Below are positions 50,912 through 63,331 of a stretch of 64,000 bases of DNA, in pieces. Within the stretch, counting starts at the first letter, position 1. Every line of letters starts with the position of its first letter. The DNA comes from Geothrix sp. (GTDB lineage: Bacteria; Acidobacteriota; Holophagae; Holophagales; Holophagaceae). The position numbers and the translations under genes are program-made. The DNA is taken from NCBI RefSeq assembly GCF_030219325.1, contig NZ_CP126625.1, positions 124,001 through 188,000 on the forward strand. Reading direction: 5' to 3'. The notes beneath the pieces were generated by a model. That model searched no databases, was not told where the DNA came from, and saw only the letters and a list, made by a program, of their open reading frames with translations.

Positions 50912-51012
50912 GAGGCTCCCGGGGAATCGACCTCCAGGATACGCCCGGGCCGGGCCAGGGGCGAATGGTGGTTCCAGACGGGCAGTGAGGTACCACCAAG
51001 AAAAGGACTTGA

Positions 51013-51131
51013 AACCGCGAATGGCGCGAATGAACGCGAATAGGGCAAGCAGGGCAGATGCGTTTCGCTTGGGTCTCTGCCTTATATCTTTCATTTGCGC
51101 GCCCGGAGGGCGATTCGCGTCATTCGCGGTT
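51013..51131. repeat. inverted-repeat element of CGCGAAT units, after gmk
   Basis: AACCGCGAATGGCGCGAAT (51013-51031) pairs with ATTCGCGTCATTCGCGGTT (51113-51131) with one mismatch. The left side shows three 10-base units, CGCGAAT-NNN (51016-51045). The 81-base interior has weaker pairings such as AGGGCAGA with TCTGCCTT. The right arm ends one base from the gmk stop on the minus strand, so it directly follows that gene. It has the same plan as the element at 46055-46128 with CGCGAAT replacing CGCAGAT. The rest of the 50912-51132 gap holds no gene. Confidence 0.85.
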
Positions 51132-51132
51132 C

Positions 51133-51747
51133 CTAGAAGCCTTCCAGGATGCGCTGAGCGGCCGGGGCCATGCGTTCCCGGCCGGCCCGGGTGGCCAGGA
51201 TGATGCTCTCGAAGTGGCGGTAGCCGAGCTCAAGGTCGTCATTCAACACCAGGTAGTCGTAGGCCGGGTACTGCTCCAGTTCGTGGCGGGCGTGCTTGAG
51301 CCGGATGGCGATCTGCTCGTCCGAGTCCTTGCCGCGGCTGCGCAGGCGCTGCTCCAGGCTGGCGGCCGAGGGGGGCAGGATGAAGATCATCCGAGCATCA
51401 GGAATGGCTTCGCGCAGGTTCCTGGCGCCGGTGGTCTCGATGTCCAGCAGCACGTCCCGGCCCGTGGCCAGCGTCTGCTGGAGCCAGTCCCGGCCCGTGC
51501 CGTAGCGGTGGCCGTAGACCTGCACCCACTCCACGAAGCCGCCCTCGCGGACCATGGCGTCGAAGCGGGCCTCGTCGATGAAGAAGTAGTCGCGGCCGTC
51601 CACCTCGCCGGGGCGGGGCTTCCGCGTCGTGAAGGAGATGGAGAAGACGAGGTCCGGCACGGTCGCCACTAGGCGCTGGGCGAGGGTGGACTTGCCCGCG
51701 CCCGAGGGCGCGGAGACCACGAACACGTTTCCCGGATGCTGGATCAA
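51133..51747 (-). CDS. gmk: guanylate kinase
   Basis: A 204-residue enzyme that converts GMP to GDP with ATP. The P-loop is VVSAPSGAGKSTLAQRL (residues ~10-26). The GMP-binding motif is FSISFTTRKPRPGEVDGRDYFF, followed by FVEWVQVYGHRYGTGRDWL, LLDIETTGARNLRE and ILPPSAASLEQRLRSRGKD, all standard. The ATG at 51747 follows GGAG-type purines. rpoZ, often linked to gmk, is absent. Directly after its stop lies an inverted-repeat element; upstream is the PEP/pyruvate-binding gene with 57 bases between. Confidence 0.95.
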   Translation of the reverse strand: MIQHPGNVFVVSAPSGAGKSTLAQRLVATVPDLVFSISFTTRKPRPGEVDGRDYFFIDEARFDAMVREGGFVEWVQVYGHRYGTGRDWLQQTLATGRDVLLDIETTGARNLREAIPDARMIFILPPSAASLEQRLRSRGKDSDEQIAIRLKHARHELEQYPAYDYLVLNDDLELGYRHFESIILATRAGRERMAPAAQRILEGF

Positions 51748-51804
51748 GGGCCCCTCCTGGTTCCACTTTAACGGAACGGGCCCAGGAAGCCGCCCCCGGT
51801 GCGC

Positions 51805-54800
51805 TTACAGGAACGCCTCCGCCTCCGGTTCCGGCGCCGGGGGTGTCCGCTTGAAGATCGCCGAGGCGCTGCGCCGCCCGTCCATGACGATGTGGACGGG
51901 TTCGTCGAGCCGCGTGTGGACCAGGCAGCCCGAGCGCCAGGTCTCCGGCTGCTGGCGCAGCCAGTCCCAGTCGAGGACGCTGGAGCCCCGGGGGTAGGGC
52001 ACGGTGAAGTAGCCGATGTTCAGGGAAGTCACGTTGTGGAAGAAGTGGGAGCCCAGGGAGGCATCCGCCTGGAAGTTCTCCATGGCGTACTCCACGATCA
52101 CCTGGGCGCAGGAGATCATGGACCACTGGATGGGGATGCCCAGGTGCTGGTCGTTGCTGCCCCAGCGCCCGGGGCCCAGCAGCACGTACTTCCCGCCACC
52201 GGCGCGGAAGCGATCGTTGAGGTGCTCGATCTCGGTGGCCAGGGCAGGCGTCTCGAACTTGTCGAAGCCCTCGGGATCCACCCAGACGATGTCGTGCAGG
52301 CCCTCGACCACGCCGTTGCCCACGCACTTCTCGGAGAACAGGAACAGCCCTGAGCAGTCCAGCGTCTCGGGATCCAGGTTCACCTCCGCGGAATCCATGA
52401 GCTGGTGCTTGATCTGCAAGAGGGTGAAGGTGGGCTTGCCGTTGAGGGGGTCCTTGTCGAGGTTCACGGCGAACTCGAGCTCGACGGGCGTCTCCATGGC
52501 GTCGCGGATCAGCTCCAGCAGGTGCTGGAGGATCTTCGGGAGGGGGAACTGGTCGTACTTGAGGATGTTCCGGAAGTTCACGACGCGGGGCCCGGGGTGG
52601 TCCAGGCCATCCCGGATGCGGTCGTCGTTCCAGTCCCAGACCGAGGCGCAGTGCTGGAGTGCGCCGTCCTTCTCGGCCTCGGCGATGTCCAGGCTGAGCA
52701 GGGTGGCGTCCTCGCCGCCGTACAGATCGATGGCCGTGCGGCTCATGTCCAGGGCGTAGAAGTGCTTCTGGGTGGTGCGGAACTGCTCCTTGGGGGACAG
52801 CATGTCCATCTCGGGGTAGGGGGGCGAGAAGCGATAGGCCTTGTCCCCTTCCACCACGTATTTCCCCAGGCCCACGGCCAGGTTGGCGATGCCGTCCTGG
52901 GGCTGGGTGTAGGCCACGGGGTAGTAGTTGAAGGACTGGGCCACGCCCGAGATGTGGGGATAGAAGCGGTCGCCGAAGCGGCGTCCGGAGACCTCCTGGA
53001 CGAGGATGGCCATCTGCTCCTCCTCGATCTTGTAGTCGATGGCCTGGAAGTAGGAGCGCGCGGCCTTGGTGTAGACCGAGGCGTAGACCAGCTTGATGGC
53101 CTCCGCGAGCTGGGCCTCGCGCACGCCGGGATCCGGGTCGGTGTTGGGCAGGAAGAAGGTGTTGTAGAGGCCCGCGAAGGGATGGGACAGGCTGTCCTCC
53201 AGCAGGCCCGAGGAGCGCACGGCCAGGGGGCCGCGGGCGTGGTTCGCCAGGAAGAGGCGCAGCTTGGCCATCAGCTCCGGCGAGAGGGAGCCCGTGAGGA
53301 AGCGCCGCTTGATGAGGTCGTCGTCCACGTCGTTCTGCAGCATCTGGCGCAGCCCGTGCCGGCTGATGAACGAGGTGAACTCCTCGGTGCCGATGATGGC
53401 CGAGCGGGGGATGCGGATGTTGGCCTCGGGCACGAGGCTGTCCAGGTCCATGCGGGCCAGCAGGGAGTGGATGAAGGCCACGCCCCGGCCCTTGCCGCCC
53501 ATGGAGCCCGGGGCCAGGCGCAGGATGTTGGGCTCGTCCTTCGGCGTGGACTCGGTGAGGGGGACCACCTTGCCGAGGGTCTTCATTCGCTGGACGTAGT
53601 CGCCCACGTTGATGAGGAAGGTGCGCATCTCCTCCGGGTCGCGGTAGTCGGTGATGCGGAACTTCCCCAGCACCTTGGCCACCTGCACCTCGCCGCGCGC
53701 CATGATCCAGGCGGAGAAGTGGTTCCGGGAGGCGTGGTAGACCAGGGACTCCACGGGCACCGTGCGCAGCTTGGCCTGCAGGTCTTCCATGTTCACGGCC
53801 CGGGCGATCTCCTGGCCCTGCTCGTTGCGGAAGATGAAGTCGCCAAAGCCCAGGCTCTCGTGGAAGAAGGCCGAGAGCTCGGCGCCCAGGGTGTACGAGT
53901 TCTTGTTCAGGAAGCCGCTCTGGATGGCCGTGGCCCAGGACTCCTTGAAGGGGTCCGACGACTGCAGCAGGGTGGGCAGGTAGGGGTTCCGGTGCTTCAC
54001 GGCCTTGATGAGCTTGATGCCGGCCTCCCGGTCCAGGGCCCCGTCCTTGGGGTACTTCCGGTCCGTGATCACGCAGAGCAGGAAGTCCTGGTAGCGGTCG
54101 GCGAAGGCGATGGCCTCCTCGTATGTGGTGGCCAGGAGCACCTTGGGGCGGACCCGCATGGCGAGGGTGCGGCTCATGCCGTCGGCGCTGTGGTCCTTGG
54201 CCAGGCGGGTGGTCTGCTTGAGCAGTTCGCTGTACAGGATGGGCAGGTACCGCGAGTAGTAGCGGATGCTGTCCTCCACCAGGAGGATCACGCGGGTGAG
54301 GCCCACGGAGGTGTCGTTCTCGACGTTGGACCGGTCCTCCATGAACTTCACCATGGCCATGAAGACCTCGGGATTGCCGTTCCACACGAAGACCTGGTCG
54401 TAGTTCCGCTGCAGCTCCTGGCGGCGCCGGTCGAGGGCCCCCACCTCCACGTTGTCGTTGAGCAGCAGGTAGATGGGGGTGCGGGGCGCGGCCTTCTTCA
54501 GGGCCTTGGACAGCTCCACGTGGCCGCCCTGGCCCAGGCGGCTCATGACGATGATCATGTCGAAGTGGCGGCTGGCGCACTTCTCCAGGGCCTCCTCGGC
54601 GGTGGAGACGTTGGTCACCCGGGGCGGGTTGCTCATGTTGAGCTGGTAGTAGCCCTCGAAGAGGATTTCCGTGAGCAGGCCGTCCTGCTCCAGCGTGAAG
54701 GCGTCGAAGGCCGGGGCCACCAGCAGGATCTCCCGGGCCCGGAGCGGCATCAGGTCGTGGAAGATCTCCTTGTCCGAGGCGTACTTGCGGAAGATCTCAT

Positions 54801-54819
54801 TGAACTCGCTGCTGATCAT
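51805..54819 (-). CDS. receiver-receiver-PPDK_N protein (PEP/pyruvate-binding domain)
   Basis: A 1004-residue protein of unknown function. Residues ~28-160 look like a degenerate receiver (EILLVAPAFDAF first strand; FDMIIVMSRLG where the Asp should be, now Met/Ser). Residues ~176-310 keep a receiver's active site: Glu182-Asp183 in VILLVEDSIRYY, Asp253 in LLCVITDRKYPKDG, Ser287/288 in LLQSSD, Lys306 in GFLNKNS. Residues ~430-800 match the ATP-binding domain of PEP synthase/PPDK (APGSMGGKGRGVAFI with Lys443; LAVRSSGLLEDS at ~532-543). There is no TSH-type swivel histidine and no PEP-binding barrel. Similar-length proteins are listed as PEP/pyruvate-binding in other phyla, without a proven role. 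ATG 54819 is at the first conserved residues. gdhA lies upstream behind a terminator. Confidence 0.8.
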   Translation of the reverse strand: MISSEFNEIFRKYASDKEIFHDLMPLRAREILLVAPAFDAFTLEQDGLLTEILFEGYYQLNMSNPPRVTNVSTAEEALEKCASRHFDMIIVMSRLGQGGHVELSKALKKAAPRTPIYLLLNDNVEVGALDRRRQELQRNYDQVFVWNGNPEVFMAMVKFMEDRSNVENDTSVGLTRVILLVEDSIRYYSRYLPILYSELLKQTTRLAKDHSADGMSRTLAMRVRPKVLLATTYEEAIAFADRYQDFLLCVITDRKYPKDGALDREAGIKLIKAVKHRNPYLPTLLQSSDPFKESWATAIQSGFLNKNSYTLGAELSAFFHESLGFGDFIFRNEQGQEIARAVNMEDLQAKLRTVPVESLVYHASRNHFSAWIMARGEVQVAKVLGKFRITDYRDPEEMRTFLINVGDYVQRMKTLGKVVPLTESTPKDEPNILRLAPGSMGGKGRGVAFIHSLLARMDLDSLVPEANIRIPRSAIIGTEEFTSFISRHGLRQMLQNDVDDDLIKRRFLTGSLSPELMAKLRLFLANHARGPLAVRSSGLLEDSLSHPFAGLYNTFFLPNTDPDPGVREAQLAEAIKLVYASVYTKAARSYFQAIDYKIEEEQMAILVQEVSGRRFGDRFYPHISGVAQSFNYYPVAYTQPQDGIANLAVGLGKYVVEGDKAYRFSPPYPEMDMLSPKEQFRTTQKHFYALDMSRTAIDLYGGEDATLLSLDIAEAEKDGALQHCASVWDWNDDRIRDGLDHPGPRVVNFRNILKYDQFPLPKILQHLLELIRDAMETPVELEFAVNLDKDPLNGKPTFTLLQIKHQLMDSAEVNLDPETLDCSGLFLFSEKCVGNGVVEGLHDIVWVDPEGFDKFETPALATEIEHLNDRFRAGGGKYVLLGPGRWGSNDQHLGIPIQWSMISCAQVIVEYAMENFQADASLGSHFFHNVTSLNIGYFTVPYPRGSSVLDWDWLRQQPETWRSGCLVHTRLDEPVHIVMDGRRSASAIFKRTPPAPEPEAEAFL

Positions 54820-54854
54820 CGGTGCCCCAGGTTCCAGGAAGTGTACCGGTCTGC

Positions 54855-54890
54855 ACAGAAAAGGGGGCCGCATGCGGCCCCCTTTTCTGT
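54855..54890 (-). terminator. intrinsic terminator after gdhA
   Basis: A perfect 17-base stem, ACAGAAAAGGGGGCCGC (54855-54871) with GCGGCCCCCTTTTCTGT (54874-54890), has a 2-base spacer (AT), giving a tight hairpin. On the minus strand the stem runs into CCCCTTTTCTGT. It separates gdhA (stop at 54910) from the PEP/pyruvate-binding gene (start 54819), which must then have its own promoter or rely on read-through. Confidence 0.88.
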
Positions 54891-54909
54891 GACTGCGAAA
54901 GGCTGGTGG

Positions 54910-56259
<1,350 letters not shown>

Positions 56260-56652
56260 GGTTCCTCCAGGAAGGAAGGTGTTGAGAAAGAGGGGCACAT
56301 GCCCGGGGTGTTGATCAGAAGGGGTTCACCAAGGGGCCCGTCCCGGGGCTGCGATGGCGCGTTTCAAGGTCGGAAACGGGACGACATGACTCTAGCCGGA
56401 GGAACCAGATGTCGGGAGGGCCGAGGGATGAAGAGGTGATGAGAAGCACTAAATGGGGCATGTTTTTAAGGGTTACCTCTCGGGTGGTTGACGAACCGTC
56501 AAATCAAGGCGAACCCGGAAGTCTGGCACTCCCTTCCCCCTGTCGGTCGCCTCCGGGGAGGGAATGCTGCGTCCATGGGCCCCCGATCAAGGTGTCCGGA
56601 ATTTCGGGTTCGGCGCCGGGGGCTGCATGGGCGGAGCCTGGATCACCCTGCC
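56260..56652. promoter_or_regulatory. 393-base spacer upstream of gdhA
   Basis: No gene was recognised here. It must carry the gdhA promoter (minus strand). The stretch 56445-56510 is locally AT-rich (AAGCACTAAATGGGGCATG, then TTTTTAAGGG), and TTGACG (56488-56493)-AAC-CGTCAA (56497-56502) is a perfect short inverted repeat that could be an operator. CACCCTGCCTCAGGGTG, around 56646, lies at the end of the convergent or downstream hybrid kinase and may be part of its termination. Confidence 0.4.
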
Positions 56653-58494
56653 TCAGGGTGCCTCGGCGCGCCCGACTCGCCCGCTCGGCGGGATGCGTTC
56701 CAGGCGCTTCATGAGCTCCCGGATCTTGACCGGCTTGGGGAGGTAGTCGTCCATTCCAGCCTGAATACAGGCATTCCGGTCCTCGTCCATGACGCAGGCG
56801 GTCACGGCCACGATCGGGATGTGGCGGCCACTGCCAACCTCCATCTGGCGGATGCGGCGAGTGGCTTCCAGGCCATCCATGACGGGCATCAGCAGGTCCA
56901 TGAGGATGACGTCGAAATCGGGGGGCCTCACTTGCAGGTCGCCCAGGACCTCCAGCGCTTCCGCGCCGTTAGAAACCACCAGAACCTGATGCCCCCATTT
57001 CTCGAGGGTCTGGCATAGAAGCTGTTGATTGATCGGGTGATCCTCCACGATCAGGATGGCCAGGGGCGCGACCTTGGGCGGGTTGATGGGAGGCGGATCC
57101 TCCGGCGCCCTTGCGGCCACCGCCGGGGCTGGAGGTCCATCTTGGGATGCCGTCCGGGCATCGACGAGTTCCACCCAGAAGGTGCTGCCCTGTCCCTGGA
57201 GGCTGTCGAAGCCCAGATTGCCCGACATCATCCTGATGAGGCGCGCGCTGATCGAGAGCCCCAGCCCGGTTCCCTCGATCTTCGTTCCCTCGGCGCCCAG
57301 TCGGTTGAAGGGCTGGAACATCCCCTCCTGCAAGTGTTCGGGGATCCCCTGCCCCGTATCGCGGATCTCGATGCGAACCATGCCCGGCTGCACCCGACGG
57401 GCGTTGATGAAGACCTGGCCCAGGGGCGCGTTGTACTTCACGGCGTTGGACAGGATGTTGATCAGCACCGACCTCAATTGCACTGGGTCGGCCAGAACGC
57501 GCAGGTTGGAAAGCTGCTCAAGATCAAAGTGGATCTGGATCTGGCGGAGATTGGCCAGGGGCAGGACCAGGCTGAGGGAGTTGGAGAAGGGTTCAGAGAG
57601 CGGGATCTCCTCGATTGAAATGGTCACCTTTCCCGCTTCGATGCTGCTGAGCTGCAGGACCTGGTTGACGAGCCCCAGCAGCAGCTCTCCGCCCTGATGG
57701 AGCTGGTCCACCAGGTGGGACTGTCGGGGGCTCAGGGGTGGATTCTGATCCTCCTTGAGCAGGTCTGCGGAGAGCAGCACGGCGTTCAGAGGTGTTCGCA
57801 GCTCATGGCTCATGGAGGCGAGAAAGACGGACTTGGCGTGGTTGGCCGCTTCCGCGGCATTCTTGGCTTCATAGAGGAGACGCTTGGACTTCTCGCGCTC
57901 CGAGGTCACGGCGACGGCTGCCACCACCACCACCGCCACGCTGGAAAGGATGGAGAGAAAGGTGAATTCCGGGGTCAGGGAGGCCGGGGCCTGATTCACG
58001 GGGAGCCTGCCTCGAAGGGTTGCTTCAAAAAGCAGGACGAGCACCGCCAGGAGGACGCCAGCCGTCGAGATCAGCATCCGTTTGCTGCCGAAGGTGCTCA
58101 GCAGGAACAGATTCGGAAGAAACCAGGGCAGAGCCACCGAGGTGATGCCCCCGGTGATGGCGCACCAGAACGCGACGATGCCGATGCCAGCCATGTTGGT
58201 GAGGAACAACCCCAGCTCCAGGCGGCCCGTGACGCGTACGAACAGGGCGCCCAGGATCGGGGAGAGGATGGCCGTGGCGAAGAGCAGGCCCTCCTGTCGG
58301 GTGAGATCCGACCGCACCAGGATGTAGGCCAGAAAAAGGATGGCGACCACGCCGGAAATGGAAAGGAGGGACTTGGCGATCCCGCGGTGGCGAAGCCGGC
58401 GCCGCTGATCCTCGCGGGCCTTTGGCGGGACCAGAAGGTCGAGAACGTCGCCCTTAGTCCTCATGAGGCCTGGCCATTGATCACCAAAAGTCAC
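56653..58494 (-). CDS. membrane hybrid sensor histidine kinase/receiver
   Basis: A 613-residue sensor with about six membrane segments in residues ~42-205 (SLLSISGVVAILFLAYILV, FATAILSPILGALFV, FLTNMAGIGIVAFWCAIT, PWFLPNLFLLSTF, LISTAGVLLAVLVLLFEA, ILSSVAVVVVAAVAV), so it probably senses within or at the membrane. HisKA carries the phospho-His in FLASMSHELRTPLNAVLL; the ATPase has NILSNAVKYNAPLG, DTGQGIPEHL and GTGLGLSISARL. A C-terminal receiver has Asp in FDVILMDLLMPVMDG and Lys in DYLPKPVKIREL. No HPt. Start: GTG 58494 has AGAGG nine bases upstream; ATG 58464 is the alternative. It stands alone; signal and partner unknown. Confidence 0.88.
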   Translation of the reverse strand: MTFGDQWPGLMRTKGDVLDLLVPPKAREDQRRRLRHRGIAKSLLSISGVVAILFLAYILVRSDLTRQEGLLFATAILSPILGALFVRVTGRLELGLFLTNMAGIGIVAFWCAITGGITSVALPWFLPNLFLLSTFGSKRMLISTAGVLLAVLVLLFEATLRGRLPVNQAPASLTPEFTFLSILSSVAVVVVAAVAVTSEREKSKRLLYEAKNAAEAANHAKSVFLASMSHELRTPLNAVLLSADLLKEDQNPPLSPRQSHLVDQLHQGGELLLGLVNQVLQLSSIEAGKVTISIEEIPLSEPFSNSLSLVLPLANLRQIQIHFDLEQLSNLRVLADPVQLRSVLINILSNAVKYNAPLGQVFINARRVQPGMVRIEIRDTGQGIPEHLQEGMFQPFNRLGAEGTKIEGTGLGLSISARLIRMMSGNLGFDSLQGQGSTFWVELVDARTASQDGPPAPAVAARAPEDPPPINPPKVAPLAILIVEDHPINQQLLCQTLEKWGHQVLVVSNGAEALEVLGDLQVRPPDFDVILMDLLMPVMDGLEATRRIRQMEVGSGRHIPIVAVTACVMDEDRNACIQAGMDDYLPKPVKIRELMKRLERIPPSGRVGRAEAP

Positions 58495-59399: not shown

Positions 59400-59516
59400 G
59401 GGGCGTCTCCAGCTTCTTGATGATGGTGCCAAAAAGTGCAAATGAAGGGACAGAACTCCCCCTTTTGGTGGACCCATCCCGGCGACTACGCTGTCAGCGA
59501 GTCCTCAGGAGCCGAC
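59400..59516. promoter_or_regulatory. divergent promoter/operator region, AraC regulator / PTS genes
   Basis: These 117 bases separate the regulator from the PTS operon. TGGTGCCAAAAAGTGCAAAT (around 59424) and CCCCCTTTTGGTGG (around 59458) hold CCAAAA (59429-59434) and TTTTGG (59463-59468), inverted copies 28 bases apart that could be an AraC-type site. TCAGGAG at 59505-59511 is the ribosome-binding site for the ATG at 59517. Confidence 0.45.
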
Positions 59517-60560
59517 ATGCACGCGAGCCTTCAGCGTCTGAAGACCTACCTCCTCTGCGGCGTCTCCCACGTGATCCCCTTCGTGGCCTGTGGCGGCATC
59601 CTCATCGCCGTGGCCATCGCCTTCGCCCCCATGCGGCCCGGCACCGGCCCGGACTTCAGCCAGGCCCCGGTGCTGAAGCTGATCATGGACATCGGCGTGG
59701 CCGCGTTCTCCCTCGTGGTGCCCGTGCTCGCGGGCTACATCGCCTTCGGCATGGCCGACCGCCCGGGCCTGGTGCCCGGCTTCGTGGGGGGCTTCATCTC
59801 CAACGCCGTGGGGGCGGGCTTCCTGGGTGGGCTGGCGGCGGGCCTCCTGGCGGGTGGCGTGGTCGTGCTGCTGAAGAAGCTCCCGGTGCACCGGCTGCTG
59901 CGGCCCATCATGCCCATCCTGGTGATTCCCGTGCTGTCCTCCCTGGTGGTGGGTCTGGCCATGTACGGCCTCCTGGGCGCACCCATCAAGGGGCTCATGG
60001 CCTGGCTGGCCCTGGCGCTGCAGAACCTGGGCAGCGGCAACCAGATCCTGCTCGGGCTCGTGCTGGGCGCCATGATCGCCTTCGACATGGGGGGGCCCGT
60101 GAACAAGGCGGCCTTCTTCTTCGGCGTGGCCATGATCAAGGAGGGCCACGTGGGCGTGATGGGCGCCTGCGCCGCCGCCATCTGCATCCCGCCCCTGGGC
60201 TTGGGCCTGGCGACGCTCCTGGCCCCCAAGCGCTGGTCGGACAGCGAGCGCGAATCGGGCCTGGCGGCCCTGGCCATGGGCACCATCGGCATCACGGAAG
60301 GGGCCATCCCCTTCGCCGCCGCCGATCCCCTCCGCGTGATCCCCACCATCATGGGCGGCTCGGCCCTGGGCGCGGTCATTGCGATGCTGGGCAGCGTGGG
60401 CGACCACGCGCCCCACGGCGGGCTGATCGTGCTGCCCGTGGTGGACCACCGCGGGTGGTACCTCGCCGCCATCGCCATCGGCACCCTCGCGGTGGCCGTG
60501 ACCATCAACCTCCTGCGCGCCCACGCCCGGCCCGCCCAGCCCTCTGCAGAGGCCCCATGA
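59517..60560 (+). CDS. PTS fructose-type permease, IIC component
   Basis: A 347-residue inner-membrane sugar transporter of the fructose PTS class. About eight to ten hydrophobic segments include LLCGVSHVIPFVACGGILIA, FSLVVPVLAGYIAFGMADRPG, GFVGGFISNAVGAGFLGGL and LGAMIAFDMGGPVNKAAFFFG; the GITEGAIPFAAADP motif is the sugar-binding GITE loop of the class. IIB and IIA activities are separate here: the next gene is IIB and the one after carries IIA. The start at 59517 follows CAGGAG. It overlaps the IIB gene by ATGA (60557-60560). Confidence 0.93.
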   Translation: MHASLQRLKTYLLCGVSHVIPFVACGGILIAVAIAFAPMRPGTGPDFSQAPVLKLIMDIGVAAFSLVVPVLAGYIAFGMADRPGLVPGFVGGFISNAVGAGFLGGLAAGLLAGGVVVLLKKLPVHRLLRPIMPILVIPVLSSLVVGLAMYGLLGAPIKGLMAWLALALQNLGSGNQILLGLVLGAMIAFDMGGPVNKAAFFFGVAMIKEGHVGVMGACAAAICIPPLGLGLATLLAPKRWSDSERESGLAALAMGTIGITEGAIPFAAADPLRVIPTIMGGSALGAVIAMLGSVGDHAPHGGLIVLPVVDHRGWYLAAIAIGTLAVAVTINLLRAHARPAQPSAEAP

Positions 60561-60853: not shown

Positions 60854-63331
60854 ATGGACTACGCCTTCGACTTCCCCCTGGCGGGCGGCCTCCACGCCTG
60901 GCCCGCCGCCGCCCTCCGCGAGCGGAGCGCGGCCCACTCCGCCCGCTTCGAATTCCTGAACGAGCGCACGGGCCGGACCGCATCCCTGGACAGCGTGCTG
61001 GGCCTGCTGGCCACGGACACCCGGAAGGGCGACCCTTGCCGGATCCGTGTGGAAGCCGGCGACGAGGCCGAGGCCCACCGCGACCTGGTCACCTTCCTGC
61101 AGGGCCCCTTCCTGGACTGCGACCGCAGCGTGGCGTCCGGGACGCGGGCCTCCACCGTGGTCCCGCGCCTGGTGGAGCGCTCCGGCGGACGCTGGTGGGC
61201 GGGCGAGGGTGTCTCTGAAGGCGTGGGTACCGGCCTGGCCGTGGGGCTGAGCGCCACTGCGCCGCGGTCCCGGGAGCCGCAGGGCGAACCGCAGGCCGAG
61301 GCCGAGCTGCAGGCGCTCCAGGGGGCCATCGCGGCCCTGGGGGCGCGGCTGCAGGCTGAGATTCGCCAGGCCACCCATGCCGCCCCGCGCAGCGTGCTGG
61401 AGGTGCACCGCGCCCTGCTGGAGGATCCGGGCTGGCGCCGCGGCATCGAGGCCGCCATCCGGGAGGATCACCTGGGCGCCGCGGCCGCCGTCGAGGCCGC
61501 CACGCGGTCGGCGGAAGCTTTGCTGGGCCGCTCGGAGCATGCGGCCATCCGCGAGCGGGCCCTGGACCTGCAGGACGTGGCCGACCGGCTGCTCCGCGAG
61601 CTCGGCGGTGAGGCGCCCGAGGCCTCCCGCCTGTGCCTGGTCCAGCCCTCGGTGCTGGTGGCCGAGCGGCTGGCGCCCTCGACCCTCCTCGCCCTGGATC
61701 ACGGACTCCTGCGGGGCCTCGTGCTGGCCGAAGGCGGCGGCACCTCCCACACGGCCATCCTGGCCCGCTCCTTCGGGATCCCCTGTGTGACCGGACTGGT
61801 GCCCGAGGCTGTCGAAGGGAAGCGCCTGCTCGTGGATGGGCTCAGGGGCCTCGTCATTGCGGAACCCACCCCTGAAGTCGAGGCCTACTACCGCCTGGAG
61901 AGCGAGGGACTGCGGCGGTGGACGGCCCGCCTGGCCACACTGCCCGAGGCCCGAACGCAGGATGGGCATCCCGTGCAGGTGCTCGCCAACATCTCCGCCG
62001 CCGAAGAGACCGCCCGTGCCCTGGAGGCCGGGGCCGAGGGCATCGGGCTGTTCCGCACCGAGATGCTCTTCCTCCACCGGCCGACTCCGCCCGGCGAGGA
62101 GGAGCAGGTCCAGGCCTATGCCCGGGTGCTCCGGGAAGCGGCGGGGCGGCCCGTCACCCTGCGGCTGCTGGACGTGGGCGGCGACAAGCCCCTGGCCTAC
62201 CTGCCCCTGCTGCCGGAGGCAAATCCCTTCCTCGGCCGTCGCGGCGTCCGCTGGTACGCCGATCAGGTGGACCTGGTGCGCACCCAGGTCCGGGCGGCCC
62301 TGCGCGCGGCGGCCCACGGCCACCTGCGCCTGATGATCCCCATGGTCGCCGAGGTGGAGGAGCTGCGCTGGGTGCGCGCCCTCGTGCGGGAGGTGCGGGA
62401 GGACCTCGCCGCCGAAGGCGCCACGGCGCCGGAGGTGCCCCTCGGCATCATGGTGGAGGTCCCCGCGGCCGCGCTGAACCTCGAGGCGCTGGCCCGCGAG
62501 GCGGACTTCCTCTGCGTGGGCACCAACGACCTGGTGCAGTACCTGTTCGCCGCGGACCGCGGCGACGCCGGCCTGGCGAAGGCCAGCCACGAGTGGCATC
62601 CGGCCACCCTGCGCCTCCTGGCGCACATCGCCCAGGGCGCGAAGGCCGCCGGGAAGCCCCTGAGCCTCTGCGGGGAGATGGCCAGCCGGACGAGGCTGCT
62701 GCCACTCCTGCTGGGCCTCGGTTTCGACGAGCTCAGCGTGGCGCCCTCCGCCGTGAGGGGCATCCGGGCCGCCCTCGCCTCCCTGGATTTGCCAGCCTGC
62801 CTGGACCTCACCCGGAAGGCGCTGCGGGCCGCCACCGCCCTCGAGGTCGAAGGGCTCCTGGATGGGGCCCTGGGCTCCGGCGCCGCGCCGCCCCTGCTGG
62901 ATCCAGACCTGGTGGTGCTCGGGGCCGATTGCGCCACCAAGGAGGAGGCCCTCAAGCTCCTGGTGGAGCGGCTCGTCAGCGCCGGACGCACCCGGGATCC
63001 CCTGGGCCTGGAGGAAGCCATCTGGGCCCGGGAGGCCGCCTACGCCACGGGAATCGGCTTCGGCTTCGCGGTGCCCCACTGCAAGAGCCCCGCCGTGGCC
63101 GCCAACGCCATCGCCGTCCTGCGGCTGGCCGCGCCGGTGGTCTGGAGCGACGAGGCCGAGGCCAGGCTGGTCCTCCTCTTCATCACGCGGCCCGATGGCG
63201 CCGACGAGCACCTCCGGGTCTTCGCCCGGCTGGCCCGCCGCCTCATGGATGCCGACTTCCGCCAGGGGCTCCTCGACGCCCCCGGCGCCGACGCCCTGCT
63301 CGACCTGCTCCGCCCGGTCCTCTCCGACTAG
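60854..63331 (+). CDS. multiphosphoryl transfer protein HPr-EI-IIA (FryA-like)
   Basis: An 825-residue soluble PTS protein with three parts. Residues ~1-90 are HPr-like: LAGGLHAWPAAAL, with His14; the next-but-one residue, normally Arg in GLHARPA, is Trp16. Residues ~115-660 are enzyme I: EGVSEGVGTGLA, His299 in EGGGTSHTAILARSFGIPCV (cut), EGIGLFRTEMLFL, LLDVGGDKPLAYL, CVGTNDLVQYLFAADRG and Cys in LSLCGEMAS. Residues ~680-825 are fructose-type IIA with His742 in FAVPHCKSP. The order HPr-EI-IIA equals E. coli FryA, not FruB. With all general parts built in, this PTS could work without separate ptsH and ptsI. It starts at the base after the IIB stop. Confidence 0.93.
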   Translation: MDYAFDFPLAGGLHAWPAAALRERSAAHSARFEFLNERTGRTASLDSVLGLLATDTRKGDPCRIRVEAGDEAEAHRDLVTFLQGPFLDCDRSVASGTRASTVVPRLVERSGGRWWAGEGVSEGVGTGLAVGLSATAPRSREPQGEPQAEAELQALQGAIAALGARLQAEIRQATHAAPRSVLEVHRALLEDPGWRRGIEAAIREDHLGAAAAVEAATRSAEALLGRSEHAAIRERALDLQDVADRLLRELGGEAPEASRLCLVQPSVLVAERLAPSTLLALDHGLLRGLVLAEGGGTSHTAILARSFGIPCVTGLVPEAVEGKRLLVDGLRGLVIAEPTPEVEAYYRLESEGLRRWTARLATLPEARTQDGHPVQVLANISAAEETARALEAGAEGIGLFRTEMLFLHRPTPPGEEEQVQAYARVLREAAGRPVTLRLLDVGGDKPLAYLPLLPEANPFLGRRGVRWYADQVDLVRTQVRAALRAAAHGHLRLMIPMVAEVEELRWVRALVREVREDLAAEGATAPEVPLGIMVEVPAAALNLEALAREADFLCVGTNDLVQYLFAADRGDAGLAKASHEWHPATLRLLAHIAQGAKAAGKPLSLCGEMASRTRLLPLLLGLGFDELSVAPSAVRGIRAALASLDLPACLDLTRKALRAATALEVEGLLDGALGSGAAPPLLDPDLVVLGADCATKEEALKLLVERLVSAGRTRDPLGLEEAIWAREAAYATGIGFGFAVPHCKSPAVAANAIAVLRLAAPVVWSDEAEARLVLLFITRPDGADEHLRVFARLARRLMDADFRQGLLDAPGADALLDLLRPVLSD

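Follow-up and report, generated by a model that had tools for sequence, protein, structure and literature searches.

A receiver and PPDK_N protein family of Geothrix and other bacteria is recurrently encoded beside glutamate dehydrogenase

Organization of the locus

The window – the whole 64,000-nucleotide stretch of Geothrix sp. DNA that was analysed – contains a gene whose product joins two receiver domains to a PPDK-type ATP-binding domain, and for which we use the working label FAM. The gene directly upstream, on the same strand and separated by a gap of 90 bp, encodes glutamate dehydrogenase (GDH). The three genes that concern us here are:

51805..54819, minus strand: FAM, a receiver-receiver-PPDK_N protein (open reading frame of 1004 aa, with homologues found)
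54910..56298, minus strand: gdhA, NADP-specific GDH (NF006929, 710.6 bits against a cut-off of 536)
56653-58494, minus strand: hybrid histidine kinase, two genes upstream of FAM and not clearly cognate

An alternative in-frame start for FAM is present at 54873, and the match shared across the genus begins at the Met of 54819; the true start of gdhA is likely at 56259. A promoter and terminator scan of positions 51000-56700 returned nothing above chance, and so lends no support to co-transcription of FAM and gdhA in this genome. Elsewhere in the window, a plus-strand gene (60854-63331) encodes PTS enzyme I and a fructose-type EIIA as one fused chain, and adjoins a gene for a fructose-type EIIC (59436-60560).

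FAM comes from a Geothrix relative, and a homologue search finds its near relatives in Geothrix and other Holophagaceae. It is single-copy in its genome, where the second match is another PPDK_N protein, which shares 28% identity with FAM across a portion of the ATP-grasp domain. Relatives are encoded on at least 590 genome stretches, and the occurrence of FAM is therefore far beyond chance. These proteins often carry the annotation 'PEP/pyruvate-binding', and form an uncharacterised but widespread family. Residue conservation is given below as counts over an alignment of 112 FAM homologues, and the whole chain was modelled with AlphaFold2 from a 16-sequence alignment (pLDDT 79, pTM 0.57). The features of the chain, all encoded on the minus strand, are:

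54304..54738, minus strand: receiver domain 1, residues 28-172, Asp-less (AlphaFold2, Foldseek, alignment)
53854..54294, minus strand: receiver domain 2, residues 176-322, with catalytic E182, D183, D253, S287 and K306 (AlphaFold2, Foldseek, alignment)
54061..54063, minus strand: codon of Asp253, the predicted phosphorylation site, present in 111/112 homologues (alignment)
53605..53802, minus strand: DUF5752-like region, residues 340-405, with His362 (111/112); passes the Pfam cut-off in two homologues
52390..53502, minus strand: PPDK_N ATP-grasp domain, residues 440-810 (Pfam E 3.2e-33, Foldseek, alignment)
51850..52389, minus strand: C-terminal domain without a family name, residues 811-990, with motifs GPGRWG..D..LGIP and S.G(S/T)HFF (alignment, model)
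52045..52047, minus strand: codon of His925, the sole His invariant in 112/112 homologues, kept in receiver-less paralogues

Apart from PPDK_N, Pfam reports on FAM a weak Response_reg (60-119), which is below cut-off in the Geothrix protein and above it in several homologues, and a weak DUF5752 (340-405), a family for which no paper was found among openly licensed PMC papers. Neither an FHA domain nor a Ser/Thr kinase domain gave a Pfam match. In Bacteroidota homologues receiver 1 is preceded by tandem repeats of about 140 residues, one to several in number (L105:8753-10000, L108:8738-10000, L066:9488-10003), with the motif ERLKEL..IN ... WQYP ... GPFLKEERNLI and no significant Pfam match; these are probably a sensory domain.

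Two receivers, of which the second is complete

AlphaFold2 gives a (beta-alpha)5 receiver fold for both residues 28-172 and residues 176-322, and in Foldseek these match REC-REC proteins (PleD and 3luf, E 1e-7 to 1e-5) and single receivers with TMt up to 0.81. The original prediction, which placed a receiver with every catalytic position at residues 176-310, is borne out by this model and by the alignment, in which the acid pair (E182 in 112 of 112, D183 in 99 with N in 12), the phospho-acceptor D253 (111), S287 (111) and K306 (112) are retained. Its description of residues 28-160 as having the fold's pattern without the Asp also holds: the (beta-alpha)5 pattern is kept in receiver 1, with Met92 (Met in 97/112) at the Asp position and Trp146 (111/112) at that of the Lys.

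PleD likewise has two consecutive receivers of which one alone is phosphorylatable, but its active receiver is the first and its output is a GGDEF cyclase, whereas in FAM the complete receiver is the second. No conserved histidine kinase was found among the neighbour clusters of FAM homologues or in related loci. The hybrid histidine kinase at 56653-58494 was considered as the cognate partner of FAM and dropped, because its gene is not kept beside the FAM-GDH pair in related loci.

Receivers linked to a PPDK-type domain have been recorded before. The REC-PPDK combination is catalogued as 'Bacteroides-like' (PMC5847659), and Asp-less receivers are listed as associated with PPDK (PMC4395418). 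FAM, with receivers (one of them Asp-less) and a PPDK-type domain in one chain, belongs with these proteins, and as far as the relevant passages of those sources go, its receiver and PPDK architecture is already known; to have called the ATP-binding domain an 'orphan' was thus too strong. Those passages give no function, neighbour or C-terminal domain for such proteins.

An ATP-grasp domain followed by a conserved C-terminal domain

A PPDK/PEP-synthase-type ATP-binding domain does follow the receivers as originally proposed, at residues 440-810, and its closest solved folds in Foldseek are rifampin phosphotransferase (RPH; 5hv1, E 7e-12, the best match) and PPDK. In an alignment with a PEP-synthase-type protein that this genome also encodes, residues K443, R535, E780, E782, Q802 and K804 fall on ATP-site positions. 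Residues of this site are kept in 98-100% of the homologues: K443, R535, E541 and E782 in 112/112, E780 in 110 and Q802 in 111, with K or R at position 804 in 112/112. PPDK requires its D-x-E ... Q-x-R set for phosphoryl transfer. The conservation of the ATP-site residues argues for an active enzyme and not a pseudoenzyme, and on this sequence evidence FAM is predicted, with good confidence, to be an ATP-dependent enzyme that is active.

Rifampin phosphotransferase, PEP synthase and PPDK share with FAM an ATP-grasp domain with identical ATP-site residues. In contrast to them, FAM has two N-terminal receivers and an unnamed C-terminal domain, and no recognisable swivel His, PEP barrel or rifampin-binding domain. 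The rifampin phosphotransferase profile NF041857 covers the ATP-grasp part only, at 15.4 bits against a cut-off of 999, and the rifampin-binding and His domains that follow the ATP-grasp domain in that enzyme were not found in FAM. The earlier statement that swivel His and PEP barrel are both lacking is upheld by sequence, with PF00391 (swivel) and PF02896 (PEP barrel) unmatched and the chain stopping about 190 residues past the ATP-grasp domain; yet there is an invariant His, His925, in the C-terminal domain.

That domain lies beyond the point at which the earlier description stopped, and comprises a further ~180 conserved residues. The motifs GPGRWG..D..LGIP and S.G(S/T)HFF are near-invariant across the 112 homologues, and receiver-less paralogues of about 770-1080 aa have the ATP-grasp domain, the C-terminal domain and His925 in common with FAM. 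A Pfam search of 95 C-terminal domains gave no consistent match and a few weak, scattered ones. A model built from 95 sequences is confident (pLDDT 91, pTM 0.88), and a PDB fold search with it found nothing significant (best E 0.006; LD-carboxypeptidase at TMq 0.35). By eye, the segments YVLLGPG, VIVE, S.GSHFF, GYFTV and V.MDGR parallel, in order, GDILVT, AIVTD, GG.TSHAA, PAVVG and VTVDG of the swivel domain. The likeness, in which His925 takes the place of a swivel His, found no statistical backing: hhalign of the C-terminal domain against a swivel-domain alignment (24 PEP-synthase/PPDK-type sequences) returned P 0.1-0.16, and with the result of the fold search we regard identity with the swivel as unsupported. 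His925 is a candidate phosphate carrier, a role that we consider conceivable though somewhat doubtful. In one receiver-less paralogue (L039:7249-10485), whose gene and that of a GDH are about 0.5 kb apart, a nucleotidyltransferase (NTP_transf_2) is fused at the C-terminus.

Recurrent pairing with glutamate dehydrogenase

The recurrent GDH context of FAM was missed by the original prediction. A survey of neighbours gives GDH as by far the commonest cluster (39 loci), followed by tandem family copies (24) and 2-oxoacid:ferredoxin oxidoreductase (15); it returns GDH as a recurrent neighbour across phyla, and no conserved histidine kinase. A GDH gene is located within 1.2 kb of FAM in 46 of the 95 homologues with enough flanking sequence, a fraction that may be lower in the family as a whole, as the named loci are the 80 best matches to the Geothrix query, which has its own adjacent GDH, and are dominated by Bacteroidota. 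The 46 pairs occur in four orientations, with GDH downstream on the same strand (17), upstream on the opposite strand (16), downstream on the opposite strand (7) or upstream on the same strand (6). They are distributed over about nine phyla (Acidobacteriota, Bacteroidota, Spirochaetota, Cloacimonadota, Bdellovibrionota, Eiseniibacteriota, Gemmatimonadota, Fidelibacterota and Myxococcota), and the family tree needs 18 changes in adjacency, of which at least 15 are forced by well-supported branches. We estimate that chance would place GDH beside a given gene in well under 1% of cases, taking one to three GDH genes and a search span of about 5 kb in a genome of 3-4 Mb.

Searches of 60 whole genomes of relatives agree with the locus counts. 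The two genes are adjacent in nearly all resolvable genomes of the same genus and in G037, G038, G040, G045, G048, G049, G053 and G057, and in three genomes of one Acidobacteriota family (G038, G040 and G048) they overlap by 4 bp. Other neighbours of the pair in the window are absent from the related loci L052 and L054, and FAM and GDH can therefore be regarded as a conserved unit. In G044 and G054, receiver-less paralogues adjoin a GDH of a different type, with about 35% identity. The association is not obligatory in either direction: four genomes (G042, G046, G050 and G056) have GDH without FAM, and about half of the loci have FAM without an adjacent GDH, the adjacency label being clustered on the tree. 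No GDH positions were found that separate FAM-adjacent GDHs from others, in a comparison with only six non-adjacent GDHs. Openly licensed PMC papers yielded no link between the FAM family and GDH.

In many Bacteroidota the family gene is preceded by genes for a two-subunit 2-oxoacid:ferredoxin oxidoreductase (L066, L067, L071, L076, L079, L081-L085, L088, L096, L099, L102 and L117). Tandem pairs of family genes are present in L058, L060, L063, L066, L111 and others, often with GDH on one or both flanks, and their second copy is about 36-42% identical to the Geothrix FAM.

Discussion

A functional tie between FAM and GDH is, in our judgement, highly probable. The original prediction had proposed a phosphorylation-controlled, ATP-dependent phosphotransferase, and with receiver 2 complete and the ATP-site residues conserved this is still the most likely reading; its 'unknown partner' can be narrowed by the recurrence of GDH as a neighbour across phyla. 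More specifically, we favour an ATP-grasp phosphotransferase under receiver control and devoted to GDH and the glutamate/2-oxoglutarate node, a proposal that falls a little short of being probable. A sensor kinase would phosphorylate Asp253 of receiver 2, with receiver 1, which is not phosphorylatable in the usual way, being used for docking or dimerisation. This change of state would open or close the PPDK-type ATP-binding domain, and a phosphoryl group would pass from ATP, probably via His925 of the C-terminal domain, to GDH or to a partner acting on it. Transfer would set the activity of GDH, an effect whose direction, too, we infer. That GDH is itself the phosphorylated target we hold only tentatively.

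The closest functional analogy is in Actinobacteria, where PknG-GarA/OdhI controls glutamate and 2-oxoglutarate enzymes (PMC5448819, PMC9769921, PMC12321487), and where control of these enzymes by direct binding exists (PMC5448819, PMC12321487). That system, like the one proposed for FAM, places a phosphorylation-controlled protein at the glutamate/2-oxoglutarate node, but is built from a Ser/Thr kinase and an FHA protein in place of receivers and an ATP-grasp domain; there is no homology, and the analogy is for function only.

FAM could instead phosphorylate a small metabolite of the same node with receiver 2 as the switch, GDH being a pathway neighbour and not the target. The characterised PPDK_N enzymes to which the library matches point (PEP synthase, RPH and PigC) all act on small molecules, and some copies adjoin 2-oxoacid oxidoreductase in place of GDH; but FAM lacks a third domain, like the PEP barrel, to bind a substrate, and the fixed pairing with one enzyme, with gene overlaps of 4 bp, fits a protein partner better. 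We consider this explanation unlikely. Equally unlikely is that FAM is an allosteric sensor of ATP/ADP and receiver phosphorylation that would bind GDH and phosphorylate nothing, by analogy with GarA/OdhI. Direct-binding control in Actinobacteria provides a precedent (PMC5448819, PMC12321487), and sequence comparison reveals no acceptor domain in FAM, whereas more than 98% of homologues retain residues that serve phosphoryl transfer and not nucleotide binding alone, and the C-terminal domain has its invariant His. Finally, although GDH adjacency forms clusters on the tree and is lacking in half of the homologues, it is very improbable that FAM is an unrelated PEP-synthase-like signalling protein beside GDH by inherited synteny without function, given the four orientations, the number of forced changes and of phyla, the lack of conservation of non-GDH neighbours, and the different GDH type beside receiver-less paralogues.

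In its fullest form, the favoured reading of a phosphotransferase dedicated to GDH would amount to a regulatory system spread widely through Bacteroidota and Acidobacteriota and not recognised before. GDH would be reversibly modified by a PPDK-type phosphotransferase that is gated by a two-component receiver and has a phosphohistidine domain of its own, of a new kind, with His925. Taken as a whole this is rather unlikely, and we put it forward as speculation.

GDH is one of the main points at which ammonia enters metabolism, and we know of no two-component system dedicated to controlling this enzyme itself. The recurrent pairing suggests that FAM may control the nitrogen/carbon balance of the cell. 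By this pairing, an uncharacterised family becomes a candidate, open to test, for the regulation of nitrogen assimilation in many bacteria of the environment and the gut. If the proposal is true, a PPDK-type phosphotransferase would be a new sort of response-regulator output.
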